This document shows positions 1 to 58,832 of a stretch of DNA of 64,000 nt, in pieces. Source of the stretch: Corynebacterium sp. (GTDB lineage: Bacteria > Actinomycetota > Actinomycetes > Mycobacteriales > Mycobacteriaceae); the NCBI RefSeq assembly GCF_030532965.1, contig NZ_JAUNKC010000004.1, forward strand, positions 88,426-152,425, in the 5' to 3' direction. Below the pieces are notes generated by a model. It did not search any database and had not been told where the DNA came from. It saw only the letters and a list, made by a program, of their open reading frames with translations. Position 1 is the stretch's first letter. Each line of letters begins with the position of its first letter. The position numbers were made by a program, and so were the translations under genes.

Positions 1-1213
1 CGGTCCACGTGTGGCCGGGGTCGATGATTGTCAGGTTGGCAGGTTCGCCTACGGAAATTGGACGCCCATGGCCAGGCAGCCGGAGAATCTCGGCGGGCCG
101 TTCACTCATGATCCTCGCTATGAAGCGCCAATCCGCCAGGCCCGTTGCAACAAAGAGCTTTGCGACGATCGCCAGGGAGGTTTCCAGCCCGAGCATTCCG
201 GGTTTCGCGTGTTCAAATTCGCAGCACTTTTCCTCCGAACCGTGCGGTGCATGATCCGTTGCGATGCAGTCGATGGTGCCATCCAAAAGCGCATCGCGTA
301 GCGCCAAGGTATCTGATTCTTCGCGCAATGGTGGATTGACACGATTGACTCCGTCATAGGTGCGCAACCGTTCGTCGGTAAGTAATAGGTGATGTGGCGT
401 AACCTCCGCGGTTAATGGGATTCCTTGGGATTTCGCCCACCGGACTAGCTCCACCGTCCCGGCAGTCGATGCATGGCAGATGTGCATGCGATTGCCGTAA
501 TCCCGGCACAGCAATGCGTCACGGGCCACGATGGATTCTTCCGCCACCCGCGGCCACCCGCGCAGCCCGAGTGTGGCTGCCACTTCGCCTTCGTGCGCCA
601 CTGCGCCTTCGGTTAGCCGCGGGTCCTCGCAGTGCTGTGCCAAAAGCACATCAAGGCCTTTGGCATATTCGATCGCGCGACGCATAATCAACGGATTGTC
701 GACGCATTTTCCGTCGTCGGAAAACATGCGAACCTTGGCATCTGAATGAGCCATCATGCCAAATTCTGTGAGTTCCTTGCCCGCCAGCCCTTTCGTTATG
801 GAGCCGACGGGATGGACGTCGCATAGACCGACCTGTTGCCCCTTGTACCACACCGATTCGGCGATGACTGGCTGGTCCATAACTGGCATGGTGTTAGCCA
901 TGGTGAACACGGCGGTAAACCCGCCCTTTGCTGCTGCTGCGGATCCGGTTGCGATGGTTTCGGTGTCTTCGCGGCCGGGCTCACGCAGGTGAACATGCAT
1001 GTCCACTAAACCGGGCAATAGCACCCCACCGCGGCCATCGACCACCCGATCGGCGTCGAAAAGCTCAGTCCCGACCTCGGCGATAACGCCATCAATGACG
1101 AGCACGTTGACGCCCTCGCCCTCACCGTACGGTTTAACATTCGTGATTAACAGCGAACCTGGCTCTACCGGCCCAAGCTGTCCTGTTTCTGGATAATCCA
1201 ATTTTTCAGTCAT
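1..1213 (-). CDS. pyrC: Dihydroorotase, 3' end cut by window edge
   Basis: Cyclises N-carbamoyl-L-aspartate to dihydroorotate, the third step of de novo pyrimidine synthesis, in the cytoplasm. Reading leftward from ATG 1213-1211 gives an open frame of about 404 codons that runs off the left edge, so the last residues are missing. The N-terminal metal-binding motif [10 protein letters not shown] lies near 1000-970, and a later stretch reads [10 protein letters not shown], the conserved metal/substrate region of the amidohydrolase family. It lies 31 bases after pyrB and is surely cotranscribed with pyrR-pyrB; carA/carB would be expected further left. The frame is never closed inside the window, so the true C-terminus cannot be described. 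Confidence 0.95.
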
Positions 1214-1244
1214 TTTCTTTCCTACAGTTACACCTTTGGTCGAA

Positions 1245-2186
1245 TTAGAAGCCTGGGTTCTCGGCGCCAGCGATTAACGTAAACAGCACCGCCATGCGAG
1301 TGTGCACGCCATTTGATACCTGCTGCAATATCGCTGAGCGCGGCGCGTCGGCAACAGCATAGTTAATTTCCATTCCGCGCAACATCGGCCCCGGGTGCAT
1401 GACAATCGCCCCGTCTTTCATCCGGGATTCCCGCTGCTTACTCAGGCCGTATAACGTCGCATACTCCCGATGGGAGGGGAAGAATCCGCCGAGCATTCGT
1501 TCTTGTTGCACCCGCAGCATCATCACGACGTCTGCGTCTGGAATTTCCGGATCCATGTCATAGTTGACTCGAACCGGCCAGTTTTCCACCCCTGGTGGCA
1601 GCAACGTGGGGGGTGCGACCAACACGACCTCCGCGCCGAGGGTGGCAAGCAAATCAACGTTGGAACGAACCACCCGAGAATGCAAACAGTCGCCAACAAT
1701 GACGATCTTGCGTCCAGCGATGTCGCCGATCCGTTGCCGCATCGTCACCGCGTCCAGCAATGCTTGTGTTGGATGCTGATGCGAACCGTCGCCAGCGTTG
1801 ATAACCGAAGGCCCTACCCCACCTGGAGCTACCCACTGCGCTAACTGCTGCGCCGCGCCGGAGGACGGGTGGCGGATAATCAACGCATCCGCGCCGATAG
1901 CTGACAGGGTGAGTCCCGTGTCTTTCAACGATTCGCCTTTTTTCACCGACGACGAGGAAGCGGAGATATTGATGACATCCGCGCTCATCCATTTACCAGC
2001 GGTTTCAAAAGACGAACGGGTGCGGGTCGAGTTTTCATAAAAAACGGTGAAGATTGTTCGCCCCCGCAAGGTGGGAAGCTTTTTTAATTCCCGTCCTTCA
2101 AGCGCTTCCCGGAACCGGTCGGCTTCGTCCATGAGGCCTGTGATTTCGTCTTTCGATAGATCTGCGATGCTAAGCAGGTGTTTCAT
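1245..2186 (-). CDS. pyrB: Aspartate carbamoyltransferase, catalytic chain
   Basis: Condenses carbamoyl phosphate with aspartate to give carbamoyl-aspartate, the committed step of pyrimidine synthesis. The product has 313 residues, the normal catalytic-chain length. The carbamoyl-phosphate loop STRTR is at residues 53-57, the 80s loop SSSVKKGES at about 78-86 and the HPTQALLD motif at 138-145. No regulatory chain gene (pyrI) is seen, as usual in actinobacteria, where control is through PyrR. The start overlaps the 3' end of pyrR by 17 bases, which suggests translational coupling. Second gene of pyrR-pyrB-pyrC. Confidence 0.97.
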
Positions 2187-2763
2187 CTATTCCGTCACCT
2201 CGGGTTAACACGATGGCATCTTTGCCATCAATATCGGCAAGTAAGACTGCAACATCTTCGGTGCGGGAAGTAGGTAGATTCTTACCCACGTAATCCGCCC
2301 GAATCGGCAATTCCCGGTGTCCCCTATCCACCAACACCGCTAATTGCACAGAAGCCGGTCGCCCCACATCGCGCAGCGCATCAAGTGCTGCTCTGATGGA
2401 ACGACCGGAAAACAAAACGTCATCAACCAAAATAACCGTCGCCCCGTCGACCCCGCCGGGAGGGATACGCGTTGGTCGGAGGGCGCGATGCGGCTTCGAC
2501 CGCAAATCATCCCGATATAGTGTGATGTCTAAACTGCCTACCGGTACAGTAGCGCCGGTGAATTGCGCAATCTTGTCCGCCAGCCGGTTAGCCAGTGGCA
2601 CTCCCCCCGATGGAATGCCGAGCAACATCACTGACTGGGTTGCCTGGTTTTCGGGTGCGTCCAGGGCAGTTTTTTCAATGATCTGGTGCGCGATGCGTGC
2701 AATAGTACGAGACACGTCGTCGCTGCTTAACAACTCGACTGTCTCGTGCCGATTCTCACTCAT
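2170..2763 (-). CDS. pyrR: PyrR, pyrimidine operon regulator / uracil phosphoribosyltransferase
   Basis: RNA-binding attenuator of the pyr operon that also has uracil phosphoribosyltransferase activity in characterised relatives. The chosen ATG at 2763 gives 197 residues starting MSENRHE; it is preceded by AAGGAGG at good spacing, while the longer frame to 2811 lacks a ribosome site and adds 16 untypical residues. The PRPP-binding motif [13 protein letters not shown] is at residues 110-122. First gene of the operon, overlapping pyrB. A hairpin with a PyrR-like loop lies just upstream, so autoregulation at the level of translation or attenuation is likely (inference). Confidence 0.95.
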
Positions 2764-2775
2764 CGTGACCTCCTT

Positions 2776-3396: not shown

Positions 3397-4779
3397 ATGA
3401 GCCTCGTAACCAGCCACATTGTCCCAGGTTCCCGTGAAGATGTGTGGAATTGGCACAGCCGCCCGGGCGCGGTTGCAAGGTTGACGCCGCCGTTTTTCCC
3501 GTTCACGCCTATTCAGGAGACTACTGATTTGGCGCGGGGTACGACGGTATTTTCGTTACCTGCCGGGTTGCGGTGGGAGGCGCGTCACGATCTTTCTGGG
3601 TACGTTAAGGGGTTTCGGTTTACTGATGTGTGTGTGACCGCGCCGATTCGGGCATTGGCTAATTGGCGGCATAGTCATGCGTTTTGTGAGGTGGAGGTTG
3701 ATGGGGTTGCGGCGACGCGGATTACGGATGAGGTGCGTACCCGGTTGCCAAAGGCGTCGCTTGCGCCGATGTTTGCGTATCGGCAGCAGCAGTTGATTCA
3801 CGATATTAAGAAGATGTCAGAATTTGCAGAGTTAACGGAGAAGCCGTTGCGGTTTGCCGTGACGGGTTCGCGGGGGCTTGTGGGTCGGGCGTTGGTGGCA
3901 CAATTGACGACCTTGGGTCACAGTGTGGTTCGTTTGGTGCGTGAGCAGCCTGGCGATGGGGGGTCGCCGGACGCGGTCGTTTCGGAGCGGTTCTGGGATC
4001 CGGAGAATCCTGACGCGGGGCTTGTCGCTGATGTGGATGTGTTGATTCATTTAGCTGGTGAGCCGATTTTTGGTCGGTTTAATGATGCGCATAAGAAGGC
4101 GCTTCGGGAAAGTCGGGTGGGGCCGACATCTCGGTTGGCTGCGTTGGTTGCGGCTTCGGATAAGTGCCAGGTGATGGTCTCGGCTTCTGCGATCGGTTTT
4201 TATGGTTTCGATCGTGGCGATGAGGTATTGACGGAGGATTCAGGTTTAGGTTCGGGTTTTTTGGCGGAGTTAACGCGCGATTGGGAGGCGGATTGTGCGC
4301 CTGCAGTATCTGCGGGTAAGCGGGTCGTGATGGTGCGAACTGGGGTGGTTTTGAGTGCGCGGGGTGGTATTTTGCCGGTTTTGCGTACAGTGTTTTCGAC
4401 TGGTTTGGGGGGAAAGTTTGATGACGGCGCGGCGTGGTTTTCGTGGGTGTCCTTGGATGATTTGACGGATACGTTGATACGTTCTGCGGTGGATTCGCGG
4501 CTGGTTGGTCCGGTGAATGCGGTGTCGCCTACTCCGGTGACGAATGCAGAGATGGTGCGGGCGTTGGGTGCGCAGTTGCGTCGCCCTGCGCGGTTTCCGA
4601 TTCCAGCGATTGGCCCGAAGGTGTTGTTGGGTGCACAGGGAGCGGAAGAACTGGTATTGGCATCGCAAAAGGTAATGCCGGAGCGGTTATTGCGGTTGGG
4701 GCATGAATTTCGCTATTCGACGATTGAGCAGGCGTTGGCGCATGAGTTGGGTGGGGAGAAGCTTTTCGACGCTCCGTAG
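3397..4779 (+). CDS. SRPBCC domain fused to TIGR01777-type SDR epimerase
   Basis: Protein of 460 residues with two domains. Residues 1-140 look like an SRPBCC/polyketide-cyclase-like ligand-binding fold (the start SHIVPGSREDVW is typical). From about 150 onward there is a Rossmann-type extended SDR of the YfcH/TIGR01777 epimerase family, with the dinucleotide loop GSRGLVG at 157-163 and the family stretch VMVSASAIGFYG further on. The substrate is unknown in this family. AGGA precedes the ATG at suitable spacing. The fused form is common in corynebacteria (recalled, not searched). The DNA here is markedly G/T-rich on the coding strand, unlike most of the window. Confidence 0.85.
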   Translation: MSLVTSHIVPGSREDVWNWHSRPGAVARLTPPFFPFTPIQETTDLARGTTVFSLPAGLRWEARHDLSGYVKGFRFTDVCVTAPIRALANWRHSHAFCEVEVDGVAATRITDEVRTRLPKASLAPMFAYRQQQLIHDIKKMSEFAELTEKPLRFAVTGSRGLVGRALVAQLTTLGHSVVRLVREQPGDGGSPDAVVSERFWDPENPDAGLVADVDVLIHLAGEPIFGRFNDAHKKALRESRVGPTSRLAALVAASDKCQVMVSASAIGFYGFDRGDEVLTEDSGLGSGFLAELTRDWEADCAPAVSAGKRVVMVRTGVVLSARGGILPVLRTVFSTGLGGKFDDGAAWFSWVSLDDLTDTLIRSAVDSRLVGPVNAVSPTPVTNAEMVRALGAQLRRPARFPIPAIGPKVLLGAQGAEELVLASQKVMPERLLRLGHEFRYSTIEQALAHELGGEKLFDAP

Positions 4780-5950: not shown

Positions 5951-6838
5951 TTAGTCCTCGACTCCTGGTTGCACGTCATTGCTGGGTGGCTGCATGGACG
6001 CATCGTTTTCGGTATCGACCAGGTCAGCTGCTGTCGATGACGACATGGTTTCCTCAAGCTGATTGCCAGTCGCTTCAACTGCTGACGTCGTTTCTGAGTC
6101 GTTCATGACCTCCTCGGCGCTGGCCTCTTCCACAGCCTCGTTTGCGATGAAGGTCTCGCTATGAACAGTGTCGTCATCGTCTGTGTCCTGGGCATCGACG
6201 ATGGAGGTTTCCGCTGCCGCGAGTGCCTCCTCGAACGATAACGCTAAGATCCCATCGTCGCTAAGCTTTTCGACGTCGCTTGCCGTCGCGGTTTCCGAAT
6301 CAGACTCAGCATCTTCATCGGATTCAATGTCGTCGCCAAGCTCCGGCGTTGGGGAGCGCAGTTCGTCGATGTTTTTTAAGGCGGAGTCTAAAACGGCGTT
6401 GATGTATGCCGGTGCGGTAGCGCCAGAATACTGGGCTGCCATTTCGATCGCCTCGGTCATTGCGGTTTTCAGCGGAACGTCTTCGTTGAAGATCATTTCC
6501 CACACGGCCACCCGCAGGATAGCCCGGTCCACCGCTGAGATCCGATGGAGTTCCCAATCTTCTGACAGGTAGGAGGCAATAACATCGTCGATGCGATTGA
6601 GTTCCTCCGCGGCGCCAGCAATGATTTCACGGGTGTATGCGGCGACTGGAGCAACGATGGATTCGTCGATTCGGGACAAATGTACTCGGTCTTGCACGAT
6701 AGCTACCGGATCGACGTCGCGGGCTTCGGCTTCGTACAGGATATCAACGGCACGGCGGCGTGCTTTGAAGCGGGATCCGTGCCGTTTCCAGTTTTTCGCC
6801 TGGTTGCGCGGTGAGTGTGATGTGTTCGAGTCAGCCAC
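5951..6838 (-). CDS. nusB: Transcription antitermination factor NusB with long acidic tail
   Basis: Binds boxA RNA with NusE/S10 in rRNA antitermination. Residues 25-160 hold the all-helical NusB domain ([17 protein letters not shown], then [10 protein letters not shown] and [11 protein letters not shown]). Residues 161-295 are an extra tail: of 135 residues, 41 are Asp/Glu and only one is Lys, so it is strongly acidic and probably disordered. Usual NusB proteins end near 140-200 residues, so the tail is unusual. GTG start 2 bases after the efp stop, in the same operon. Role of the tail unknown. Confidence 0.92.
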
Positions 6839-7705: not shown

Positions 7706-8797
7706 CTACACGATCAGTAGGTCTTTCGGTAACCGGGTGAGGTTTTCGGCAACACCGCTGGTGATCAGAAGCGTATCCTCAATGCGCACTCCCCCCTTAC
7801 CCGGAACATAAATCCCCGGCTCGATGGTCAAGGTCATGTTCTCGGCCAATTCACCAGAACCGGTAACTGCGGCCCACGGAGCTTCGTGCACATCCAAACC
7901 GATCCCGTGGCCAGTGGAGTGAACGAAATAGTCGCCGTAACCCGCGTCGGTGATGACATCGCGACACGCCTTGTCGACGTCGACAAGCTGCGCCCCAGGA
8001 ACGGCGGCCGCGCAGCCTGCTAATTGTGCCCGCAACACGATCTCGTAGATTTCTTGAGCAAAATCGGAAGCCTCGCCCACCACGACCGTACGGGTCGTAT
8101 CGGAATTAAAACCTCGATCATGGGCACCAAAATCAATAGTGACCAGATCCCCTACCTCAATAACCCGATCAGTTGCGCTGTGGTGCGGCTTGGCGGAATT
8201 CGGCCCGGAGGCAACAATCGTATCGAAGCTTGGCCGTTCCGCGCCCTTGACGCGCATCCTGTATTCCAAGTCGCCCGCGACTTCGCGTTCGGTGCGGCCA
8301 GCCCGAATGAGGCCAGCATCGACGATTTCTTGGAACGCAGAATTTGCAAGCTCCGCCACCGCGCGTAGCCGTTCCCGTTCCAATGGGTCCTTGGTTATCC
8401 GAATCTCCTCAATCACCCCGGAGATCGGCACCAAGGTGACGTCTTCGCCGCAGACCTCTTCGAGTTTTTTAAACTCCGCCACCGAAACGAAGTCCGCTTC
8501 GAAACCGACCCGGCGCGGCCCCGTAATCTTCGATAATAGGGTGGTTGCGCAGGCACGGGCGTTGATGGCCTCAATATCAGGGACTTCTTCGGCGATTTGG
8601 GTGGTGTATCGACCGTCCGTTGCCATCAAGGCGGAGAGGTCTTTATACACTGTCAACGCCGCATTGGAGCCGGAAAAGCCGGAGAGATATCGAACGTGGG
8701 TGAGATGGGTTACCAGCATGACGTCTACGCGTTGGGCTGCTAGTTTCGCCGCCAGTGCGCGACGCCGGGTTAAGAATCGAGTATCCGATAAAGCCAC
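7706..8797 (-). CDS. pepQ: Xaa-Pro aminopeptidase / dipeptidase, M24 family
   Basis: Cytoplasmic metallopeptidase cleaving next to proline. The 363 residues comprise an N-terminal creatinase-like domain (about 1-130) and the C-terminal pita-bread catalytic domain. Metal ligands are seen in TIDFGAHDRGFNSDTT (Asp pair), VHSTGHGIGLDVHEAP (His) and LTIEPGIY / RIEDTLLI (Glu pair). GTG start with AAGGA seven bases upstream. Its position between aroQ and efp is conserved in corynebacteria and mycobacteria. The exact substrate range cannot be told from sequence. Confidence 0.93.
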   Translation of the reverse strand: MALSDTRFLTRRRALAAKLAAQRVDVMLVTHLTHVRYLSGFSGSNAALTVYKDLSALMATDGRYTTQIAEEVPDIEAINARACATTLLSKITGPRRVGFEADFVSVAEFKKLEEVCGEDVTLVPISGVIEEIRITKDPLERERLRAVAELANSAFQEIVDAGLIRAGRTEREVAGDLEYRMRVKGAERPSFDTIVASGPNSAKPHHSATDRVIEVGDLVTIDFGAHDRGFNSDTTRTVVVGEASDFAQEIYEIVLRAQLAGCAAAVPGAQLVDVDKACRDVITDAGYGDYFVHSTGHGIGLDVHEAPWAAVTGSGELAENMTLTIEPGIYVPGKGGVRIEDTLLITSGVAENLTRLPKDLLIV

Positions 8798-11120: not shown

Positions 11121-12323
11121 TTAAAACTGCAGCCGCTTTTCGACGCGCTCAAGGTAGCCTGCGATGTTACGTTTGGTTTCCGACAGGCTGTCGCCGCCGA
11201 ATTTCTGCAACACCGCCCGGGCCAACACCAACGCCACCATGGCTTCGGCCACTACCCCGGCCGCTGGCACTGCACACACATCAGAGCGTTGGTGAATTCC
11301 GGTAGCAGGTTTTCCGGTAGCCATGTCCACTGTTTTTAGCGCACGCGGCACGGTCGAGATGGGCTTCATAGCGGCGCGCACCCGAAGCGTTTCACCGTTG
11401 GTCATGCCGCCTTCAAGACCACCGGCCCGATTGGTGGTTCGCCGGAGGATGCCGTCTTCACGCACCATTTCATCGTGCGCCTCTGATCCCCTGCGCCGAG
11501 CCTCGGCAAACCCGTCACCGATTTCCACGCCTTTGATTGCTTGAATGCTCATTACTGCGGCCGCGAGCTGTGCATCTAAACGGTCCTCGGCCGAGATGTG
11601 AGACCCCAAACCAATCGGTAATCCGCTGACCAGAACTTCAACGACGCCACCTAAGGTGTCGCCTTGTTTCTTCGCGGCTTCGATTTCAGCGATCATGCTA
11701 GCCTCTGCTTCCGCGTTAGCTGCCCGAACTGGTGATGCATCAATGCGTTGCAGATCGTCAAAAGTCGGGTCGTCGCCATCGGCGGGTTGAGAGGCACCAA
11801 TGGAGATAACATGGGAAAAGACTTCCACTCCGAGAGTTTCCCGGAGGAAATTCCGCGCCACAGTTGCCGCCGCAACCCGGGCCGCGGTTTCACGTGCGGA
11901 AGCGCGTTCCAAGATTGGGCGAGCCTCGTCCAGATCGTATTTCAACATTCCGGCGAAGTCCGCATGGCCAGGCCGAGGGCGGGTGAGTTTAGCCGCACGG
12001 CCGGAGCTCATCGCCGAGGCGATCTCCGGATCATCGAGATCAAGCGGGTCGGCGGACATGATGGTCGTCCATTTCGGCCACTCGGTATTGCCGATCATGA
12101 TGGCGATCGGACTACCCAGCGTCTCCCCATGGCGCACACCGCCTAGGATGGTCACATCGTCTGCTTCAAATTTCATGCGCGCACCGCGACCGTAGCCCAG
12201 TCGGCGCCGGGCTAACTGATACGAAATATCATCGCGGGTGATGGGCACACCTGCGGGCATGCGCTCAAGCATTGCGACCAAAGCTTGGCCGTGAGATTCT
12301 CCTGAAGTAGTCCAACGAAGCAT
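11121..12323 (-). CDS. aroC: Chorismate synthase
   Basis: Makes chorismate from EPSP with reduced FMN, the last step of the common aromatic pathway. 400 residues, a usual actinobacterial length. The N-terminus [20 protein letters not shown] and internal [13 protein letters not shown] match the family signatures. No clear ribosome site precedes ATG 12323, but the N-terminus is family-typical, so the start is kept. It heads the aroC-aroK-aroB-aroQ group and follows the prepilin peptidase after about 50 bases. Confidence 0.97.
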
Positions 12324-12373: not shown

Positions 12374-12958
12374 TTATGGGGAGAAAATACGCGCCTCGGG
12401 ACACAGCACCATAACAACAGCAGTAGCCACTAACATTGCGGGACCATGCGGAACTTTCACTCGACCTAGACGGCGTGCCTGATAATACGAGCCGTCGTTA
12501 TTTATCACATCTGAAGTGCCCACCCAGGCAGGATTGTTCTCCCGATACTCTTCCAGCGTCACGGGCGTCTTTCGTAACCACCTATTTGCAATAACCGCTG
12601 AACCGATGCTGAGTAATTGCGCCAGCAGCACGGCACCAAACACTGGTACAAGACCAGCTTTTCCAATCAGTGTTCCCGTGACCAGGGCAAGTTTTATATC
12701 CCCACCACCAATTCCGCCTGTGGCTTTGGCACTCAATAGCACTGCAACAATATGGCTTAAGAAATACAATCCTGACCATACCAACCCGCCGAGGATAGCC
12801 TTCGCCTGGCCAGTGAGTACTGCCAATACCACGATCACAACTACGCCGGGCACAACCAGAAAATTAGGCAGCCGGTAGTGCCGTAAATCCCACCAGCTAA
12901 GGGCAATCGCCCAACTACAACACGCGATATACAACCCGACAACAGCTACTGACTCCAC
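12374..12958 (-). CDS. Type IV prepilin peptidase-like membrane protease (A24)
   Basis: A 194-residue polytopic membrane protein of the A24 aspartyl protease family, which cleaves class III signal peptides of pilin-like proteins. The two catalytic aspartates are in WWDLRHYRLPN (Asp24) and GGGDIKLAL (Asp87). It lacks the N-terminal methyltransferase domain of classical PilD, so it is the short, FlaK/TadV-like form. No pilin or secretion ATPase gene is in the window, so its substrate must be elsewhere. Its place between aroE and aroC appears conserved in corynebacteria (recalled). Confidence 0.85.
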   Translation of the reverse strand: MESVAVVGLYIACCSWAIALSWWDLRHYRLPNFLVVPGVVVIVVLAVLTGQAKAILGGLVWSGLYFLSHIVAVLLSAKATGGIGGGDIKLALVTGTLIGKAGLVPVFGAVLLAQLLSIGSAVIANRWLRKTPVTLEEYRENNPAWVGTSDVINNDGSYYQARRLGRVKVPHGPAMLVATAVVMVLCPEARIFSP

Positions 12959-13824: not shown

Positions 13825-14000
13825 GGTTCCCCTTTCCTGCCGATAGAAATTAGTTGCGTCGCAAAGCAATAAACCCGCACCACCGTTACAAATAGGCGCG
13901 GCTGCTCTCTAACGCTAAGCTGCTTTTCTTCTCAATGCAACACACTTCAAAAACTACGACAATCGTGCCCCAAACCAGCTGTACCCAAAAGTGTTCAGCA

Positions 14001-18777: not shown

Positions 18778-20130
18778 TTACTTTAGCACTTCGCCCCGGA
18801 TTAATGCGCGTAGCTTGTCGACGACCCCACGAAGCCGCTTCTCATTGCCGTGATTAGAGGGACGATAATACTCCGCTTTACCCAACAACGTATCCGGCAA
18901 ATACTGCTGCGCGATCACCCCAGCCGGATAGTCATGTGGATACTGATACTCCACCGCATGTCCTAATTGCTTAGCACCCGAATAATGCCCATCCCGAAGG
19001 TGCGGTGGCACCACCCCGGCCTTCCCCGCCCGCACATCAGCGATGGCTGCATCAATCGCCCGATACACAGTATTGGACTTCGGGGCGGTAGCCAGATAGA
19101 TCGTCGCCTCGGCCAGTGGAATCCGTGCTTCTGGCAAACCAATAAACTGCGCAGCCTCCGCCGCTGCGACCGCGATTGGTAGTGCGTGCGGATCAGCCAT
19201 ACCCACATCCTCAGCCGCATGCACAATCAACCGGCGCGCAATGAACCTAGGGTCCTCCCCGGCCTCAATCATCCGCGCCAAGTAATGAATCGCAGCGTCG
19301 ACATCCGAACCCCGGATCGATTTAATGAACGCGGAAGTCACGTCGTAATGCTGATCTCCATCTCGATCGTAGCGAACCACTGCCCGATCAATGTTGGCAC
19401 TTATCACATCACTATCGAGGACACCACCATCAGCGACCGCTTCCGCGGCCGCCTCCAAATACGTCAGTGCGCGCCGGGCGTCACCGCCTGATAACGCTAC
19501 CAATTGGTCAAGCGCTTCAGCCGTGACGCTAATACGATTAGCCAATCCCCGGTCATCGGAAATAGCGCGGTTCAGGACGTCCCGGATTGCGCCGTCGTCA
19601 AGCGGCTGCAGCTGCAGTAGCAATGACCGCGAAAGTAATGGCGCTACCACCGAGAAACTGGGGTTTTCGGTGGTTGCCGCCACCAAAAGTACCGTCCGGT
19701 TTTCCACAGCTGCCAATAATGCATCCTGTTGGGTCTTAGAAAAACGATGGACTTCGTCGATAAAGAGCACTGTACGAACCCCATCGATCAACGCCCGTCG
19801 CGCCTGGTCAATGACCGCCCGTACTTCCTTAACACCCGAGTTCAACGCTGACAGCCCAACAAACGTATGCCCAGTCGCCGAGGAAATCAGCGAGGCTATG
19901 GTGGTTTTTCCGGTTCCGGGTGGGCCATATAGGATAACGCTAGCCGCGCCGGAACCTTCAATGAGCCGACGAAGCGGTTTGCCGGGCGCTAAAAGGTGTT
20001 CTTGACCAGCAACTTCTTCCAAACTTCTCGGCCGCATTCGCGCCGCCAACGGCGCGTGGGAGCCCACGGTGAAGAATTCTTTTCCGTCACCGTCACCGCC
20101 CTGGGGTGCGTCGAAAAGCGTTTCGGCCAC
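18778..20130 (-). CDS. rarA: Replication-associated recombination protein RarA (MgsA)
   Basis: AAA+ ATPase related to clamp loaders that acts at stalled forks. 450 residues: Walker [11 protein letters not shown] at about 69-78, Walker [10 protein letters not shown], the arginine-finger region after [13 protein letters not shown], and a C-terminal tetramerisation part ending in the conserved [10 protein letters not shown] and [10 protein letters not shown] segments. GTG start; it lies 5 bases after the kinase-like gene, so the two are coupled. The order aspS - kinase - rarA - alaS is the usual actinobacterial one. Confidence 0.95.
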
Positions 20131-24624: not shown

Positions 24625-24683
24625 TTTCGGCTTTCAATTTTACTGCGGTTTCCGCTTGTCGACGTCCCTGGGTCGCAACCCAA

Positions 24684-35944: not shown

Positions 35945-36285
35945 GCCCATACCTTAAGTACTTTTTCCGACGTCCGCCACACTTACATGCACAGCACGGC
36001 CACACAAGACACCGTTAATGACCGTGACCATGGCTTTTAGAACCCCCTTTTAACGAAACGACGTCCCAGAAAACCACAACTGCTAGTTGTGGATTCGCTT
36101 TTCGACGCTAAAAGTTGCTCCCATCCCCGACCAAACACAACCACTGGCGCGTCTTCATTCGCCCGTTCTTTCGGCGAGCTTTGTCTATTTGGTTTTTCTA
36201 AGGGTTAGAATGGTCGCTGGTTCTCGTTCCGCATATCGTTGGAGCGACGTTATCGTAGACGCACATTCAAAGTGAGGAAATTAGG
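35945..36285. other. Divergent intergenic region tpx / cyclophilin
   Basis: About 340 bases. One copy of the GCTTTTCGACG word lies at 36097-36107, outside any gene. No clear promoter, repeat or RNA was found; TAGAAT near 36205-36210 could be a -10 for the cyclophilin gene but lacks a good partner. Confidence 0.4.
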
Positions 36286-39025: not shown

Positions 39026-41306
39026 ACCCACCAGAGGTCACCCGGTAAACGTCAAAAACCCCTTCAGTATTGCGCAACTGGGTCATCAGCGACCCCAATT
39101 GCTTCGTGTCGGAAACGGTAAACGTAAAGCGCACGGTGGCGACATGGTCTTCCGAGCAATGGGAATTCATAGCTACCACGGATACTTGTTGTTCGTTTAT
39201 CACCCGGGTGAGTTCCATCAACAGGCCATTGCGATCCAAGGCCTCAAGCTGCAAGGTGGCTTGGAATACCGAACCATGTCCTTCTGAAGCCCACGAAACA
39301 TTAATCATCCGTTCCGGTTCTTCGGCAAGTTTCTCCGAATTGGTGCAGTCGGTTCTGTGCACCGACACCCCACCACCACGGGTTACAAAGCCAAAGATCG
39401 CATCGCCTGGTACTGGCATGCAGCATTTAGCCAGCTTCGCCATCACATCAGGGCTGCCCTCGACTAGCACCCCGGTTCCATCCGCCACTGCCTTGTGCTT
39501 GGCATTAACCAGTTCGCTAAACGGTGTACGGGCAACAAGAGTGTCAGCCGCGTCATCGGCATCACCGAAAGCAGCCATCAGGCGATTGGCAACATGCGCA
39601 GCTGATACGGAACCGGAGCCGATTGCAGTGTACAAGGCATCAACGTCCGCGTAGTGCAGTTCGGCGGCGACCGCCTTCATTGATTGTGCGGTAAACAGCC
39701 GGTGAATCGGCAATCCACCCCGTTGTACTTCAGCGGCTAAGGCGTCGCGTCCAGCTTCGAGGTATTCTTCCCGCCGTTCTTTTGCAAACCACTGCCGTAT
39801 TTTGGCCTTGGCACGGGGAGAACGCACAAATTCCTGCCAATCCCGAGACGGTCCGGCATTGGGGTCTTTGGATGTAAAGATTTCCACCCGGTCACCCGAT
39901 TTGAGCGTTGATTCTAAAGCAACGAGCTTGCCATTGATTTTCGCACCGATACAGCGGTGTCCAACCTCCGTGTGAACCGCGTAGGCGAAGTCGATTGGGG
40001 TGGCGTCCATCGGTAGATTAACCACGTCGCCTTTCGGGGTAAAGACGAAAATCTGTTTACTGGTTAAGTCGTACCGCAGCGAATCAAGAAATTCGTTGGG
40101 ATCGGCGGCCTCTTTTTGCCAATCAAGAAGCTGGCGCATCCAGGCCATTTGATCGACCTCAGCCTGTTCGCCGCTGTGGCTACCTTTGGTCTCTTTATAA
40201 CGCCAGTGCGCGGCGATGCCGTATTCAGCGTTGAAGTGCATTTCATGGGTGCGAACCTGGACTTCCAGTGGTTTGCCACCGTCACCCATCACTGTGGTGT
40301 GTAGCGACTGGTACACACCGAACTTCGGTGAGGAAATATAGTCTTTAAACCGCCCGGGCATCGCAGCAAACAGTGAGTGCACAACACCGATAGCGGCGTA
40401 ACAGTTATTGAGACTATCGACTAGGATTCTGATCCCCACGAGGTCGAAGATCTCGTCGAAGTCTTTGCCCCGAACGATCATCTTTTGATAGATCGACCAA
40501 TAGTGTTTTGGTCGTCCCATAACTTCTGCATCAATGTTGTTTTCCTTCAAACCTTGTTGCAGAATTGCCGTGATCTCTTTCAAATACCGATCCCGTGACG
40601 GTGCCCGGTCAGCAACTAATCGAACCACTTCGTCGTATTTTTTGGGATATAAGATCGCAAATGACAAATCTTCTAATTCCCATTTCACGCTGGCCATACC
40701 CAACCGGTGCGCAAGTGGGGCAATAACCTCTAAGGTTTGTCGTGCTTTCTTGGCTTGTTTCTCCGGCGGCAAGAACCGCATGGTGCGCATATTGTGAAGC
40801 CGGTCGGCAACTTTGATCACCAGAACGCGGGGATCGTGTGCCATGGCCACGATCATTTTGCGAATCGTCTCGGCCTCAGCGGCCGCCCCTAATGCGACTT
40901 TGTCCAGCTTTGTCACGCCGTCGACAAGCCGGGCGACTTCCTCGCCGAAGTCTTTCGTCAATTCCTCCAGGCTATAGTCGCAGTCTTCCACGGTATCGTG
41001 CAACAGAGCGGCAATAAGCGTTGTGGTATCCATGCCGATTTCGGCAGCGATAGTTGCCACGGCGAGCGGATGGGTGATGTACGGATCACCAGACTTGCGG
41101 AAAACTCCCTTATGCAGCCGCTCAGCGGTATCGTAAGCCCGCGAAAGCGCGTCCACATCCGCTTTCGGGTGGAACTCCCTGTGGATACTCAATAGCGGTT
41201 CCAGCACCGGGTTGATCTTCCCCCGGTTTCCGGTCAGGCTCCGGGCTAGGCGTGCGGACATGCTACGCATAGTGCTCGACTGTTTCATCGTTCGCTGCTG
41301 TGTCAT
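39024..41306 (-). CDS. rel: Bifunctional (p)ppGpp synthetase/hydrolase Rel
   Basis: Makes and degrades the stringent-response alarmone. ATG 41306 gives 760 residues and has AAAGG seven bases ahead; the ATG five codons earlier has no site. Domains in order: HD hydrolase (HDTVEDCDY motif), synthetase domain ([21 protein letters not shown]), TGS domain, a zinc-finger-like/helical region, and a C-terminal ACT domain ([18 protein letters not shown]). Both active sites look intact. Follows apt, as in C. glutamicum. Confidence 0.97.
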
Positions 41307-41467: not shown

Positions 41468-42022
41468 TCACGAAGCTTCGGCGTCATTGACGACAAAAAC
41501 GGGCGCGCCCTGTAGTTTTTGCCGACCGTTCAAGTTTGCGACTTCAAGCACCACACCGTACCCGGCTACTTCCCCACCAAGCTGACAAATAAGATCCCTT
41601 GCTGCGACTAACGTACCGCCTGTTGCCAGGACGTCGTCGATAAGCACAACTTTCACGCCCTGTAAGTCGATGCCGCTTGCCGGAAGCTCTAATGCTGCGG
41701 TTCCATATTCCAACTCGTATTCTTTGGTATGCACCGGCGGCGGTAACTTGCCACGCTTGCGAATGGCTAAAATCCCGAGGCCCAATTTGTAAGCGACCGC
41801 AGAACCGAGAAGGAAGCCACGTGCATCGAGCCCGCCGATCATTTCGGCACCCATCTCTTGTGCTGCGGCGGCTAGTTCGTCGACAAGCAATTGAAATGCC
41901 TCGGCGTCTGCCAATACTGGCGTGAGATCTTCGAAAATAATCCCTTCTACCGGGAAACCTGGCACAAAGCGAGTTTTAATACGCAGTGCCTCACGAGCGT
42001 CGCAGTAAGTACTAACAGACAT
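41468..42022 (-). CDS. apt: Adenine phosphoribosyltransferase
   Basis: Salvages adenine to AMP with PRPP. 184 residues, with the PRPP-binding motif [14 protein letters not shown] and the N-terminal [18 protein letters not shown] of APRTs. Located between dciAE and rel, the known corynebacterial order; purine salvage and (p)ppGpp metabolism share GTP/AMP pools. About 160 bases lie before rel. Confidence 0.95.
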
Positions 42023-42148: not shown

Positions 42149-43822
42149 TTAATTGTGGATTACGTCTTCTCCCCACCGATCGAGGTTCCAACCGATTCCG
42201 TATAAATCAGTATTGTGAACAACATTTTTCACTGATCGATCAACAATAAACACCCGAGGTTGACTTGCCAATGGGATTGTTTCCACTTCGTCCCAGCTGG
42301 CGGCCTCCGCGCTCCGAACAGCGTCAATGTCGTTTGACACGTGTTGAACGGCGTCGAAGCTGTATTGCGGATCCAGTGCCTGCAGCATCGCATCGGCGCC
42401 GCCATCCGTAGTAAAGGTCGTGCCGTAGCTATTTTCAAACGTCCGCGGCAGGTTACCGATGGAGGCAAAATCAGCCGATACATCTTCCACGGTGATTCCG
42501 GCCTCCGCGCAGGAACTGCGGATAGATTCCACCATCGCAGCCTTTCGGGCATCAGGCGCAAAGTATCCGATCCGAACTGTCTTGCCCTCCAGCTTGCGCG
42601 CGGCATCAAAATCAAGTCCCAACCGCGGATCTGTGATGTCGGAAAGATGTTGATTGATGCTGTCGCGGGCACGGATTGTTCGAGTCGCCACAGGGTCCAC
42701 GGTCACGCCTGAGCTTTTCGACGACGCCCGGGCGACGGCGGCTTGGTCCACACATGCCGCGAACGCTTGTCGGCTCTCCTTCGATTCAAAAACCCCAGCC
42801 GAGCCCAGAATCAAATGATCCGTTAAAACCCCGGCTGTAGCTTCAATATCGTAAATGTTTTCCGGATCATTGCGGTCGATCCATTTTGTTTCGGCAACAC
42901 TATCGACTTCGGCAATCTGCAGATTGCCTTCAGTGGCTAACTTTTGTAGATCAGTGCCTTTCGGCCAAACAACGAGCTTATCAAGCACCGGTTTTTCGCC
43001 GTAGTACTTATCGTTGCGGCTTAAGGTGACCTCCCCTTGCGCACCTACCGATTCGATGAAAAATGGACCCGAGCTTACCTGCAATTGCGGATCAAACGTC
43101 TGAAGGTCGAAACCGGTATTCCATACTTGGGCAATATCCGGCAGGAGGTTAGCGTCGTAAGTCTGCAACGCTTGATTGAATGCTTCAAGGCTTAAGTTAA
43201 GCTTCGCTGCTATCGCGTGTGCAGGTAGCAAACTTCCGCCGCTGAACAGGAACCGCCAACGGTCACCGTAATCTTCTTTAAAGACCACGGTGGCTAGTTT
43301 AGAACCAGGGGTGCAGTCAACCCGTTCGACTTGATCCATCAGCGGAATGTATGAATCGAACAGCGGCCGAGCCGAAGCCGCAACGAATGCCAATAGAAAC
43401 GAGTCGCACGTTATCGGCTGGCCATCCGAATACACCGCTTTATCGGAAATCCGATATTCCACTCGCTGTTGAGCACCTGGCAAGGCACGCACTTGAACGA
43501 GATCCGAGTTAGGAATACGTTGCCCCTTCGGACCGTTAACATAGACGCCCGGATACAACCGCCCCACCAATTGGTGGGCATTGCTGGAGAAGCCGACGGT
43601 TGTCGAGACATTCGTCGTAATCAAATAATCATCAATGGCATAGCCGAAGTAGTCATGTGAATTCGCATCGTCGGAGTTGGAACCGAATCCACAGCTTGTC
43701 AGTGTTAATGAGATTCCCAACATAGCACTCATCGCGCCTGTGCGTAGTTTCCGCGAAAAAAGTCGTTGCACGCTTTTTCGTATTGGCTTCGCCGTGGCGT
43801 GCAGCAATCGCGATTGAGTCAT
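42149..43822 (-). CDS. dciAE: Extracellular solute-binding lipoprotein, family 5 (DciAE-like)
   Basis: A 557-residue peptide/nickel-type (SBP family 5) binding protein. After a long basic N-terminus the hydrophobic stretch ends in a lipobox LTSC (Cys44), so it is a lipid-anchored protein. The family motif at the start of the mature domain is blurred, and the chain is close to normal length. No permease or ATPase genes are adjacent, so it is an orphan binding protein, as described for dciAE of C. glutamicum at this place. Substrate unknown. Confidence 0.85.
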   Translation of the reverse strand: MTQSRLLHATAKPIRKSVQRLFSRKLRTGAMSAMLGISLTLTSCGFGSNSDDANSHDYFGYAIDDYLITTNVSTTVGFSSNAHQLVGRLYPGVYVNGPKGQRIPNSDLVQVRALPGAQQRVEYRISDKAVYSDGQPITCDSFLLAFVAASARPLFDSYIPLMDQVERVDCTPGSKLATVVFKEDYGDRWRFLFSGGSLLPAHAIAAKLNLSLEAFNQALQTYDANLLPDIAQVWNTGFDLQTFDPQLQVSSGPFFIESVGAQGEVTLSRNDKYYGEKPVLDKLVVWPKGTDLQKLATEGNLQIAEVDSVAETKWIDRNDPENIYDIEATAGVLTDHLILGSAGVFESKESRQAFAACVDQAAVARASSKSSGVTVDPVATRTIRARDSINQHLSDITDPRLGLDFDAARKLEGKTVRIGYFAPDARKAAMVESIRSSCAEAGITVEDVSADFASIGNLPRTFENSYGTTFTTDGGADAMLQALDPQYSFDAVQHVSNDIDAVRSAEAASWDEVETIPLASQPRVFIVDRSVKNVVHNTDLYGIGWNLDRWGEDVIHN

Positions 43823-49416: not shown

Positions 49417-49524
49417 TTCCTTACTTTCTCATTGTTAGATGGTGGTGCGTCGAAAAGCATTGCTTGCCGACGATTCTATGTCGCTTTTGCAATAAACCAT
49501 AGGTCTATCCATACCCAGCGGACA

Positions 49525-53257: not shown

Positions 53258-54541
53258 ATGTCTGGTGCCACTGGGATCAAGGTGGGCGAAGTGCAGCCGC
53301 GGGTGGTGCGACTATTGTGGCTGTGGTGGCTGATCGCACATGGTTTTTTGCTGCGGCTTTTGGTTGTCAATACTGTCCCAGATGGTGACGTCCGTTATTA
53401 TTTTGACGCGGTTTCGGGGCTTAATCCGATAGCGATGCGGGAGTATCCGATTGTTGGCACGTGGCCGGCCTACATTGCGTTATGGGTGAGTAATGGTTCC
53501 GCTGACCACTACTTGGCGATGTTTTCGGTGGTGTGCTGTGTCCTTGATGCGTTGTTTTTTGCAGTGATCCTGCACGCTCGTATTGCTGTTTCTGCGCAGG
53601 CGAGAATAATGGCTGCGGTGTTTTGGGGTGGTTTTTCCCTAAGCGTTGGACATGTTTCCGTCTACCGGCTTGATATTTTTCCCTCGGTGGTTGTCGGTGT
53701 CGCCGCGATTTGTTTGTTTCTGGCGCCCCGGTGCAGCGCCGCGTTGTTGGCGGTATCGGTGATGATTAAATTATGGCCAGGGGTTTTAATCGTGGGGTTA
53801 GTGGACTCCATTCGCCGCAGCAGGACTTATGTGCGTATTGGCATTTTCGTTGCGGCTTTGGTGTTAATAACGGGGGTTGTTGTTCCGTTTTCTGGTATCG
53901 ATCGATTGCTTTCACCGTTTTCGTATCAAGGCGAGCGTGGGCTACAAATCGAATCGATTGCGGCAACGCCTGCCATGTGGTTAGCGAACACTACTGCTGC
54001 TGATACCTACGTGGTGTTTTATGCTGCGTCGAAAAGCTATGAAATCAGCGGGCCGGGCGTTAATACCGCCATCGGGCTGTCTAGTATTTTGCTGTTAGCG
54101 ACGTTGTTGTCTGCCGCCTTGTGGGCTTTTCGACGGCTGTGGGTGGGCGGTTGGAATCCGGATCAGACGGTGGTGCTGTGGATTTTCTTGATTTTGATGC
54201 TGATCATTTCCAATAAGGTGTTCTCGCCGCAATATGTGGTCTGGCTCGGGCCGATCTTGGCGGTCGCGCTGCTACGTGCTCGCAACCCCCAGTTTCCGGT
54301 GACGTTGGCGATCCTCACCTACTGCATGGCACTGCTTGGCCAGTTGGTGTACCCATTCCATTATCACGAGCTCACCGACAATGTCGGCGGTATCTCCTTA
54401 GGTATCTTCGGGTTGGCCGCGCGAAATATTCTCATGGTTGTGGCTACTATCATCGCCGGTATGTGGCTGGTGAAAACACCCGGGGGCGGAAAATCGAAGC
54501 AAGCTGTCCGGCTTCCTGAGCCCCAGCCGGGCCATTATTAA
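53258..54541 (+). CDS. GT87-type polyprenyl-phosphate-dependent mannosyltransferase
   Basis: A 427-residue membrane protein with about ten helices, belonging to the DUF2029/GT87 group that makes mannan on the outer face (LM/LAM elongation) using decaprenyl-phosphomannose. The GT-C acidic motif appears as DGDVRYYFD near residue 48. Another conserved stretch is RLDIFPSVVVG. AAAGG precedes the ATG at about 8 bases. Adjacent to the PIM synthesis genes, which supports a role in lipoglycan assembly (inference). Confidence 0.8.
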   Translation: MSGATGIKVGEVQPRVVRLLWLWWLIAHGFLLRLLVVNTVPDGDVRYYFDAVSGLNPIAMREYPIVGTWPAYIALWVSNGSADHYLAMFSVVCCVLDALFFAVILHARIAVSAQARIMAAVFWGGFSLSVGHVSVYRLDIFPSVVVGVAAICLFLAPRCSAALLAVSVMIKLWPGVLIVGLVDSIRRSRTYVRIGIFVAALVLITGVVVPFSGIDRLLSPFSYQGERGLQIESIAATPAMWLANTTAADTYVVFYAASKSYEISGPGVNTAIGLSSILLLATLLSAALWAFRRLWVGGWNPDQTVVLWIFLILMLIISNKVFSPQYVVWLGPILAVALLRARNPQFPVTLAILTYCMALLGQLVYPFHYHELTDNVGGISLGIFGLAARNILMVVATIIAGMWLVKTPGGGKSKQAVRLPEPQPGHY

Positions 54542-54568
54542 CCCCTCGTCACATGGTTCGGTTAGCGC

Positions 54569-56340: not shown

Positions 56341-57309
56341 TTAACCGGCCCTGTCCGCGATCCAAAACGGTTGCAGCACATGCCAATCGGTCGGGTGACT
56401 GCGAATATTATCCGCCATGATCGTGCTGTACCTGCGCACAACATCAGCGACATCGTCAGTGGGATTCACCGGGATCGGCGGCGAAAACCGCATCCCCCAC
56501 CCCGGCTCTAAGATCGTGCCCGTAAACCAATTATCAATCACCAACAACGTCGCACCGGTCTCCAATGCTAACCGGGCAGCACCCGTTGGCAAGGTCGTGA
56601 CTTCGCCGCAGAATTCCACTTCCACGCCTCGACCGTTCAAATCCCGATCGCCGACAATAGCGACCGTTCCACCGGCAGTCACCACATCTTTCAGCCGCTC
56701 GTAAGGAGGGCGTTGTCCCGGCGTTCTGCTGTGCGCCAAAACATTAAAGCCCAAGGTTTTCCGGAACCGCACAAAAGCGTCGAAAAGCTTCTCCGGCTTT
56801 AGGCGTTCCGCGACTGTCGTGAACGTCCCGATCTGGGACGCTACGTACATTCCCGCCAGATCCCAGTTTCCACTGTGGGTAGCCACCACGATCGTTCCGG
56901 TTGGCTTCGCTACTGCTTCCAACAGATGCTGTTTTCCAATGACTTCACGATCGATCTTTTCGATGACCCCTTGGTCTTTCATTATCGCTGGTAGGCGAAA
57001 CGCCTCGTACCAATAGCGTGCATAGGATCGCATCGAATCGCGAATCAGCTGACGGGTTACGTTTTCTTTTCCAACGACTCGGCTCAGATTCCTCCGCAGT
57101 TGGTTCATGCCAGCGCCGTTATCGCTAGCATGATCCGCACCCCAGAGAAATATCCGGGCGGTAAGACGCCTCGGCAGACGTGTCATGAGCCCCCAACCCG
57201 CGTAATACCCCCATGCGCTCATTGTTTCTCGGCTCGGTAGGGCCGTCGAAAAGCGTGAGAACACGGAACCCACCCAGTCAGGGACGCTACTACTCATTGT
57301 CACAGTCAC
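56341..57309 (-). CDS. Phosphatidylinositol mannoside acyltransferase (PatA-like)
   Basis: 322-residue LpxL/HtrB-like acyltransferase that acylates mannose in PIMs. The catalytic HxxxxD motif reads ATHSGNWDLAG (His, Asp), and the GDRDLNGRGVEV segment is the second family motif. N-terminal hydrophobic segment for membrane contact. It corresponds to Rv2611c. GTG start 17 bases after pgsA. A copy of the CGTCGAAAAGC word sits at 56778, and another at 57244, inside it. Confidence 0.92.
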   Translation of the reverse strand: MTVTMSSSVPDWVGSVFSRFSTALPSRETMSAWGYYAGWGLMTRLPRRLTARIFLWGADHASDNGAGMNQLRRNLSRVVGKENVTRQLIRDSMRSYARYWYEAFRLPAIMKDQGVIEKIDREVIGKQHLLEAVAKPTGTIVVATHSGNWDLAGMYVASQIGTFTTVAERLKPEKLFDAFVRFRKTLGFNVLAHSRTPGQRPPYERLKDVVTAGGTVAIVGDRDLNGRGVEVEFCGEVTTLPTGAARLALETGATLLVIDNWFTGTILEPGWGMRFSPPIPVNPTDDVADVVRRYSTIMADNIRSHPTDWHVLQPFWIADRAG

Positions 57310-57326
57310 AATTCCTTATACCGCTG

Positions 57327-57995
57327 TTACTGCTGCTGCGGCGTAATCGGCTCGCACTCTGTCGCCCCAACCGGTGCTGCAATCGCTTCGGCCGCCTGCG
57401 GGCTTTTCGCGACAATCAATAGACGCTGCCCCACCGTAATCACGCTACCCACGGCTAAGAGCCACAATGCGGCGTCGATGGCGTAGGGAACCCCTAAACC
57501 CGTCAAACCGATACCGGCAAGACCGATGATTAACCGTTCCGGCCGCTCAATCAACCCGCCAACAACTTCAAAACCCGAGGCTTCCCCGCGCGCTTTAACG
57601 TACGAGATAACTTGAGACGACACCAAAACGACGAAACTCGCCACGATCACACTGGAATGCGGCTTGTAGGTATAAATCAACCACCAAGTAATCGCCGCAA
57701 ACAATGCCCCATCGGTTATGCGGTCACAGGTAGCATCCAGCGTCGCCCCGAACTTCGTGCCGTAGCCTTGCAGCCGCGCCATCGTTCCATCCACCATGTC
57801 CAACGCCGCAAAAACACCGGACAGAACGGCCGCTAAAACGAGATGGCCGGTAGGAATAAAAATCACAGCGATTGCCGTTGTAATCAAGGCACCCAGCACG
57901 GTCACGGTGTTTGGACTCAACCCCAATTTGTTTAAAAACCGCGCTAACGGTTCAATGACAACCGCCGCTGGTTTACGCCCGCTCACACTAAGCAT
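57327..57995 (-). CDS. pgsA1: Phosphatidylinositol phosphate synthase (CDP-alcohol transferase)
   Basis: Joins CDP-diacylglycerol with inositol phosphate to make PIP, the precursor of PI and PIMs. ATG 57995 gives 222 residues; GGGGG lies 6 bases ahead. The CDP-OH signature is complete: DMVDGTMARLQGYGTKFGATLDATCDR fits D-x2-DG-x2-AR-x8-G-x3-D-x3-D (written here only as pattern). Six helices. The start overlaps the HIT gene end by 8 bases (coupled). Homologue of mycobacterial PgsA1. Confidence 0.94.
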   Translation of the reverse strand: MLSVSGRKPAAVVIEPLARFLNKLGLSPNTVTVLGALITTAIAVIFIPTGHLVLAAVLSGVFAALDMVDGTMARLQGYGTKFGATLDATCDRITDGALFAAITWWLIYTYKPHSSVIVASFVVLVSSQVISYVKARGEASGFEVVGGLIERPERLIIGLAGIGLTGLGVPYAIDAALWLLAVGSVITVGQRLLIVAKSPQAAEAIAAPVGATECEPITPQQQ

Positions 57996-58635
57996 GAGCG
58001 ACCCCCGGAAACGCAGGATCGGTTGCCGCCAAATCAAACCATGCCGCAGCTAACAACCGGCGAGTTTCGCGTAACAACTGCGGCAGAACCTTGGTTTCGC
58101 CAAGGACCGTCATGAAATTCGCATCCCCATTCCACCGAGGAACAATATGCATGTGGAGGTGCTCCCCTACTGACCCACCCGCCGACCGACCGAGGTTGAA
58201 CCCAACATTGCAGGCATCCGGGCGCGAAACAGTTTTGAGCACCCGAACCGCAGCCTGGGCAAATGCCATAAGCTCCGTCGATTCCTCCGGCTTTAAGTTT
58301 TCTAGATCCGGCTCCTGCCGATACGGTACAACCATCATGTGTCCCGAGTTATATGGAAAAAGATTCAATACACAATAGACGAAATCTCCCCGCGCCACGA
58401 TAAGGCCATCCTCGTCCGATAACGAGGGAATTTCAATAAAGGGATTGGGGCGATGGCGGTCTCGCCTCGAATGGTTTTCGTCGGGATCGCCATCGGTTTT
58501 CGACTGCGTTGTTGTAACGTCGCTACTTTTAACTCCGTCATTGCGGATATAGTTCATCCGATAGGGCGCCCACAACCGTTGCAGCCGATCGGGAGTACCA
58601 ACACCTTGATCGATGAAATCCTTAGAGTCACTCAC
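57988..58635 (-). CDS. HIT domain protein (Ap4A phosphorylase-like)
   Basis: A 215-residue HIT-family protein; the nucleotide motif HLHMHIVPRW contains the histidine triad. The mycobacterial neighbour in this place (Rv2613c) is a diadenosine tetraphosphate phosphorylase, so the same activity is likely here. GTG start. The N-terminal 60 residues are polar and poorly conserved. Follows thrS after about 200 bases. Confidence 0.9.
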   Translation of the reverse strand: MSDSKDFIDQGVGTPDRLQRLWAPYRMNYIRNDGVKSSDVTTTQSKTDGDPDENHSRRDRHRPNPFIEIPSLSDEDGLIVARGDFVYCVLNLFPYNSGHMMVVPYRQEPDLENLKPEESTELMAFAQAAVRVLKTVSRPDACNVGFNLGRSAGGSVGEHLHMHIVPRWNGDANFMTVLGETKVLPQLLRETRRLLAAAWFDLAATDPAFPGVAHA

Positions 58636-58832
58636 AGCCGTTTTTCGTCCTCACGTAACTTTGCGGAGGTACCTGGTACATACCAAATACCTCCGGCGCC
58701 TGCTTTTCGACGTTTCCATCAGCGCTTCTACCCAACCTTAGTGAAAGCCCCACCCAAAGTGTTGACAATTTCAGGCGAGGCTTGCACTTTGTTATAGACC
58801 GGATATGCAATCTAAATGCAGATTATCCCGAG

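Follow-up and report, generated by a model that had tools for sequence, protein, structure and literature searches.

A window of 64,000 nucleotides (nt) from Corynebacterium sp. (contig NZ_JAUNKC010000004.1, positions 88,426 to 152,425) carries the 11-base word GCTTNTCGACG, with one free base N, in far more copies than expected, raising the question of what keeps this word in the genome. An earlier note on this DNA had named uptake sequences among the known parallels, and the dialects, the conservation of the sites and their rarity in mobile DNA described below favour that possibility. We propose that the word is probably a DNA uptake sequence, in which case it would be the first such sequence outside the Neisseriaceae and the Pasteurellaceae.

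The word was counted in the window, in its whole genome (3,214,386 bases in 59 contigs, hereafter the own genome) and in a 377 kb sample, for which the window was joined by 313 kb from elsewhere in the own genome; reading the pattern backwards provided a reversed control. The window contains 22 matches to GCTTNTCGACG, while 100 dinucleotide shuffles gave a mean of 0.23 and a maximum of 2. The free base is T in 14 copies, G in 7 and A in 1, and the T form lies 8 times forward and 6 times reverse. This recount agrees with the earlier note, which had reported 14 T copies (8 and 6 by orientation) and 8 G/A variants from 1054 to 58712, where the first and last copies were indeed located. A genome-wide count, as proposed at that time, confirmed the excess, with 1351 copies (644 forward, 707 reverse) versus 30 for the reversed control (17 and 13), that is 45 times the control and about one copy per 2.4 kb. 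The sixth base is partly free too, the core being GCTTNNCGACG, which brings the window count to 32 and occurs 192 times in the 377 kb, where a model constructed after masking the sites predicts 5.5. With one of the nine fixed positions changed, the 27 possible variants add up to 148 copies for 129 expected in the same 377 kb, indicating that the word is sharply bounded and that decayed copies are few. Around the sites of the own genome, the preceding base is rarely G and positions 12-16 are rich in C; position 13 is a C in 98% of the sites of G106 and 93% of those of G001, two genomes compared below. A periodic C at positions 22, 25 and 28 coincides with the third codon position in the preferred frame, and we read it as a codon-position effect.

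Selection acts on the DNA and not on the protein, as had been proposed from the window. When the codons of 308 open reading frames (ORFs) were shuffled synonymously 100 times, the coding copies dropped to a mean of 2.75 and a maximum of 7, versus 99 seen, and codon bias was rejected as the source of the word. Moreover, all six reading frames are used. The claim that the word is read in different frames holds to that extent, but one frame per orientation leads, sense phase 2 accounting for 44 and antisense phase 2 for 26 of 100 genic sites in the 377 kb. With ORFs defined as those of at least 90 amino acids (aa), 34 of 134 sites of the own genome lie outside ORFs, where non-ORF sequence makes up 9.7% of the total. 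The same cut-off places 16 window copies inside ORFs and 6 of the 22 outside, so that the three intergenic sites counted earlier were too few.

The orientation of the copies does not follow replication. Eight single segments of 64-100 kb gave 129 forward and 135 reverse copies, that of G051 being the sole uneven one (5 versus 13). Since such segments are expected to lie mostly within one replichore, this balance leaves polar words of the type of Chi or FtsK-orienting polar sequences (KOPS) unsupported, which is what the lack of strand bias in the window had suggested. HIP1, the high-density palindrome of cyanobacteria, is also a dense DNA-level word limited to one bacterial group, but the Corynebacterium word is non-palindromic and has dialects, and a HIP1-type palindrome was rejected because the word is not palindromic. 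In a palindrome test, GCGATCGC was found 22 times for 15 expected in 377 kb. As a separate observation, the palindrome GCCCGGGC has 9 copies in the window, yet just 16 versus 7.3 expected in 377 kb. Neighbouring copies of the word lie in opposite orientation more often than not over seven genomes (241 of 400, p 5e-5), including those at least 300 bp apart (204 of 350, p 0.002), the latter excess being due largely to the own genome (97 of 158, compared with 107 of 192 for the six others together). At distances below 100 bp, all 15 neighbour pairs of the own genome are inverted (8 convergent, 7 divergent). The spacing of the sites is slightly more regular than random, with a coefficient of variation (CV) of 0.862 for a random 95% range of 0.863-1.136.

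The sites are maintained between genomes, as was found when their conservation at orthologous positions was checked, another proposal of the earlier note. In G118, which is 83% identical to the window region, 14 of 19 aligned sites are intact, versus 24% of background ten-position words (p 8e-6); in the reverse direction, 14 of 16 G118 sites are intact in the window (p 7e-8), and 3 sites are unaligned each way. In the more distant genomes, 4 of 12 sites (G109) and 3 of 8 (G051) are kept, versus 3-4% of background words. At the seven aligned sites where the own genome and G118 disagree, the difference is one or two substitutions, with no insertions. In the comparisons with the more distant genomes, several bases have changed at many sites, and at one site the alignment has gaps. 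The word is also switched in place. G106 carries the common form of the word (GACG dialect) and G001 a second dialect, GCTTNNCGATG (GATG), the two genomes being 77% identical over 69 kb. Among the 18 of 25 G106 GCTTNNCGACG sites that align, G001 has 6 GATG words, 2 GACG words and 10 sites with no word; six of the eight word-to-word sites have therefore changed dialect in place. Since the sites are kept beyond background and their dialect is switched in place, the words seem to follow a reader acting in trans. In a helicase tree of 20 genomes, the starred branches require the GATG label to have changed at least twice.

Over the genus, the density of GCTTNTCGACG is bimodal: 61 of 242 genomes have less than 15 copies/Mb, 12 have 15-40/Mb and 169 at least 40/Mb, with a maximum of 511/Mb, and the pooled strands are balanced (47,839 versus 47,801). 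Among five genomes of the low group searched for words in 80 kb each, G001 was rich in GCTTNNCGATG. This dialect was then counted in 80 genomes, namely all 73 of the low and middle groups and seven others: it reaches at least 80/Mb in 17 of the 73, G001 among them with 1021 copies versus 7 for the control, and the rest of the 73 have about 10-32/Mb. G024, counted in the 169, is mostly GATG as well (1337 GCTTNNCGATG versus 117 GCTTNTCGACG). G012 has a private word, ATGACGNCGCG, with 661 copies in 2.0 Mb versus 9 for the control and at most 47 in 49 other genomes searched; no core in common with the GACG and GATG words is evident. This private word often has TTG in front, and its density is like that of the common word although the sequence is unlike. 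Altogether, 187 genomes bear a word (169 GACG, 17 GATG and the private one), 10 are weak (17-38/Mb) and 45 are without any tested word (hereafter lacking genomes).

Elsewhere in the family, 140 genomes from 30 other genera showed no comparable excess of GCTTNNCGAYG, the maximum being about 2.7 times the control. A further dialect candidate, GCTCNNCGACG, reaches at most about 3.6 times the control in some GC-rich genomes, bearing ones included. No other dispersed word was found in 80 kb of each of four of the 45 lacking genomes (G007, G011, G043 and G132). The G043 repeat CAGAACGACGATCG was rejected as a dispersed word because it forms a tandem array; in the same genome (L145-L148), a tandem array of a CAGAACGACGATCGCGACGAC-like unit lies perhaps inside a repeat protein. 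In G202 (L299-L302), ATATNCCCCCG occurs 8 times in 80 kb versus 0.12 expected and could be a dispersed word or a repeat. The word can also be encountered in published Corynebacterium primers, and in C. glutamicum it lies at the beginning of the LOG and glnH genes. The start of the C. glutamicum LOG gene, as given by a primer in an excerpt of PMC4979012, has an exact 19-base match in G034, G038, G065 and G214, where it opens a protein that is LOG-like as judged by eye, and each of these four genomes bears 829-1067 copies; the word is also present in a glnH primer in an excerpt of PMC9769921.

The word is rare in mobile DNA. We examined 20 small contigs (presumed plasmids) of 13 few-contig word-bearing assemblies, either in full or over their first 20 kb. 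These small replicons contain 6 copies in 380 kb versus 98.9 expected from their hosts (reversed control, 3), and 17 of the 20 have none. Similarly, the corynephages CL31 and BFK20 have one copy each. The density of the own genome would give about 18-19, and that of G065, with 948 copies in 3.3 Mb, about 12-13.

To our knowledge, only uptake sequences combine such copy numbers on both strands, switched dialects, inverted pairs and rarity in non-recombining DNA. Uptake words are so far known solely from the Neisseriaceae and the Pasteurellaceae, as stated in an excerpt of PMC12616744. According to the same excerpt, the DNA uptake sequence (DUS) of the Neisseriaceae, read by the minor pilin ComP, is a non-palindromic word of about 9-12 bases with hundreds to thousands of copies, dialects with a conserved core among related species and frequent inverted pairs, all of which resembles what we describe here. 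In contrast to DUS, the Corynebacterium word is unrelated in sequence, is bipartite with two free bases and has few one-mismatch copies; the pilus is of the Tad type instead of type IVa, and both receptor and uptake are putative. The uptake signal sequence (USS) of the Pasteurellaceae, whose receptor candidate is ComN/PpdA, is likewise a genome-wide word with a less conserved downstream extension, to which the C at position 13 would correspond. In Corynebacterium, however, this downstream part is C-rich and not AT-rich, the three-base periodicity beyond it is read in part as a codon effect, and both the bacteria and the pilus are different. The features shared with DUS and USS are copy number, presence on both strands, selection at the DNA level, dialects, inverted pairs with intergenic enrichment, rarity in mobile DNA and the presence of uptake-machine genes; the rarity in non-recombining DNA is a criterion of our own and is not taken from PMC12616744. 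Among the papers listed by our searches, none was found, by title and beginning of abstract, to describe an uptake word or any other genome-wide word in Corynebacterium, a scope outside which lie most subscription-journal papers and preprints. Among the Actinobacteria, the pilus of Micrococcus luteus is of the Tad type, and ComEA and ComEC have roles in the transformation of this bacterium. Its competence with Flp pili and com genes is described in PMC6370729 and PMC8467076, the abstracts of which mention no uptake word in their opening parts.

If the word is an uptake sequence, Corynebacterium would be naturally competent, the word would raise DNA uptake, and reading would occur via a Tad pilus/ComEA-ComEC route. 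A DNA receptor at the cell surface, probably one of the minor Tad pilins, would bind GCTTNNCGACG or the local dialect in free DNA. Corynebacterium, a member of the Actinomycetota, has a mycolic outer membrane, across which the retracting pilus and ComEA would carry the bound DNA; ComEC would then pass one strand into the cell, where it would recombine with a homologous stretch. Word-bearing DNA of kindred cells being taken up more often, word alleles would replace word-free ones, and over time this drive would seed both strands of the chromosome wherever the sequence tolerates the word. Plasmids and phages, which do not recombine with the chromosome, would not collect it. A change in the receptor would shift the preferred word, existing sites would be converted in place, and dialects would arise. 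A more far-reaching version, which we consider possible but doubtful, is that self-recognising uptake arose here independently of the Proteobacteria, that the bipartite word is read by a minor Tad pilin of the TadE-like kind, which draws kindred DNA across the mycolic outer membrane, and that shifts in this pilin make dialects acting as barriers to gene exchange between groups of species.

The genes of the predicted machinery are present, including in lacking genomes. ComEC was found in 241 and the TadA ATPase in 239 of the 242 genomes (232 above the family cut-off), a DUF4244 Flp-like pilin in 64 of 65 and a prepilin peptidase in 79 of 80, and ComEA, named by position and by likeness among loci, adjoins ComEC in all 20 loci. 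Presence or absence of the machinery as the cause of the lacking genomes was rejected, the genes being found in both sorts. The quality of the matches is another matter: among 44 lacking genomes, 30 have a TadA match no better than E 1e-126, versus 3 of 81 others (G048 left out), and in these three (G014, G075 and G095) the matches are weak enough for fragments, while ComEC scores are little different (p 0.025). A profile of the TadE-like pilin, built from three bearing and two lacking sequences, never gives a match weaker than 7.1e-22 in the 17 bearing or weak genomes that were searched. Of the 29 lacking genomes searched, 26 score below every bearing genome (5.6e-21 or weaker, G029 only just with 5.6e-21), including three in which the pilin was not found, one of these (G079) having a cut-short locus. 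Among the 17 TadE proteins of bearing or weak genomes, 12 have the motif R-x-HAIG, compared with 0 of 23 lacking ones inspected by eye. Pfam has no family for the TadE-like protein and assigns PF13400 to its neighbour. In six lacking genomes, G045, G101, G082, G081, G175 and G177 (L315, L318, L323, L328, L332 and L333), the TadE-like and TadE/G-like pilins seem to begin close to the mature end or right at it (MNTVEGA, MSTVYGA), as would be the case after loss of the leader peptide.

Several observations weigh against an uptake sequence. None of the genes tested (ComEC, TadA, DUF4244 pilin, prepilin peptidase and ComEA) distinguishes by its presence the bearing genomes from the lacking ones, and three lacking genomes (G132, G207 and G043) have bearing-type TadE-like, TadE/G-like and Flp pilins, their TadE-like pilin scoring 7.1e-22 or better and containing R-x-HAIG. 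Common descent may account for the lower Tad scores in lacking genomes and could likewise explain the pattern of R-x-HAIG and TadE divergence, for which these three exceptions speak against a simple link. A drive would be predicted to leave decayed copies, whereas one-mismatch variants are hardly in excess, less so than in Haemophilus. Pairs closer than 100 bp in the six other genomes are 4 inverted and 4 not, and the small replicons of G031 (3 copies versus 4.4 expected) and G040 (2 versus 5.5) are not clearly depleted. Moreover, within the literature scope given above, no publication on DNA uptake or transformation in Corynebacterium was found.

These points led us to weigh other explanations. 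The word could be the binding site of a genus-specific chromosome protein, acting in nucleoid organisation, segregation or nucleoid occlusion and only through copies on the chromosome. The chromosome-wide spread, the slightly even spacing, the rarity in small replicons, the strand balance inside segments and the sharpness of the word with its few one-off copies would all suit such a protein; nevertheless, 45 genomes without tested words, a second dialect and a private word would require that hundreds of sites change together with the protein that organises the chromosome, and we regard this explanation as rather unlikely. A signal for a recombination or repair enzyme without replication polarity, in other words a bidirectional Chi-like site, would fit a dense word that is maintained both in and between genes. 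Known Chi sites are polar, however, and the balance of strands in all segments but that of G051 does not agree with this; in addition, recombining phages might gain from such a site, yet CL31 and BFK20 have a single copy each, which makes this reading quite improbable. The word could also be a methylation or modification mark, used by an orphan methyltransferase or by a defence system that spares marked self-DNA: the self-DNA is marked, mobile DNA is mostly unmarked, and dialects could track enzyme specificity. A long non-palindromic word present once per 2 kb is nonetheless unlike known modification sites, which are shorter and not enriched, and we hold this possibility to be highly improbable. 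Finally, an incidental product of biased mutation or codon use, or of an inserted repeat, to which the preferred frame of each orientation would point, is extremely improbable in view of the synonymous shuffles, the mostly word-free small replicons of the same assemblies, the conservation above background and the fact that the seven sites differing in G118 do so by substitutions.

An uptake sequence in Corynebacterium would, if true, be a third independent case, this time in the Actinomycetota, suggesting that uptake labels evolve repeatedly, perhaps wherever DNA crosses an outer membrane. It would also predict a hidden natural competence in the genus of the industrial C. glutamicum and provide a genetic tool, the word being added to donor DNA. 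With at least two dialects, word-bearing species that number almost 190 and dozens of species lacking the tested words, the coevolution of word and receptor would be open to testing.

Copies of the word and other features of the 64,000-nt window. Remarks on G118 refer to the window region aligned to this genome; G109 and G051 are more distant relatives. ORFs are those of at least 90 aa.
Feature	Position	Strand	Remark
NN-form GCTTTGCGACG	157..167	+	
Word GCTTTTCGACG	1054..1064	-	outside ORFs; reads ACTTTTCGACG in G118
Word GCTTTTCGACG	4761..4771	+	kept in G118
NN-form GCTTAGCGACG	6256..6266	-	
Word GCTTTTCGACG	6265..6275	+	overlaps opposite NN-form 6256-6266; unaligned to G118
NN-form GCTTGGCGACG	6331..6341	-	
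Word GCTTGTCGACG	7978..7988	-	kept in G118
Word GCTTTTCGACG	11135..11145	+	kept in G118
Prepilin peptidase gene (PF01478)	12374..12958	-	Pfam E 2.6e-13
NN-form GCTTTGCGACG	13857..13867	-	
Word GCTTGTCGACG	18813..18823	+	kept in G118; in G109 with different N
NN-form GCTTGACGACG	19593..19603	-	
Word GCTTTTCGACG	20109..20119	-	kept in G118 and G109
Word GCTTGTCGACG	24654..24664	+	outside ORFs; reads ACTTGTCGACG in G118
Word GCTTGTCGACG	25166..25176	-	kept in G118 and G051
NN-form GCTTTCCGACG	28367..28377	-	
Word GCTTTTCGACG	29276..29286	+	kept in G118; in G109 with different N
Word GCTTGTCGACG	31907..31917	+	outside ORFs; G118 differs at one base
NN-form GCTTGACGACG	34101..34111	-	
NN-form GCTTTACGACG	34986..34996	+	
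Word GCTTTTCGACG	36097..36107	+	outside ORFs; unaligned to G118
Word GCTTGTCGACG	40919..40929	-	kept in G118 and G051
Word GCTTATCGACG	41635..41645	-	G118 differs at one base
Word GCTTGTCGACG	41878..41888	-	kept in G118 and G051
Word GCTTTTCGACG	42713..42723	+	kept in G118
Word GCTTTTCGACG	49448..49458	-	outside ORFs; paired with opposite NN-form 49462-49472; unaligned to G118
NN-form GCTTGCCGACG	49462..49472	+	
Word GCTTTTCGACG	54027..54037	-	kept in G118 and G109
Word GCTTTTCGACG	54125..54135	+	kept in G118
Word GCTTTTCGACG	56778..56788	-	G118 differs at two bases
Word GCTTTTCGACG	57244..57254	-	kept in G118
Word GCTTTTCGACG	58702..58712	+	outside ORFs; kept in G118
NN-form GCTTTACGACG	59813..59823	+	

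Besides the copies of the word, the window contains a prepilin peptidase gene, the product of which is probably the processing enzyme of the Tad pilins and possibly part of the uptake machinery.

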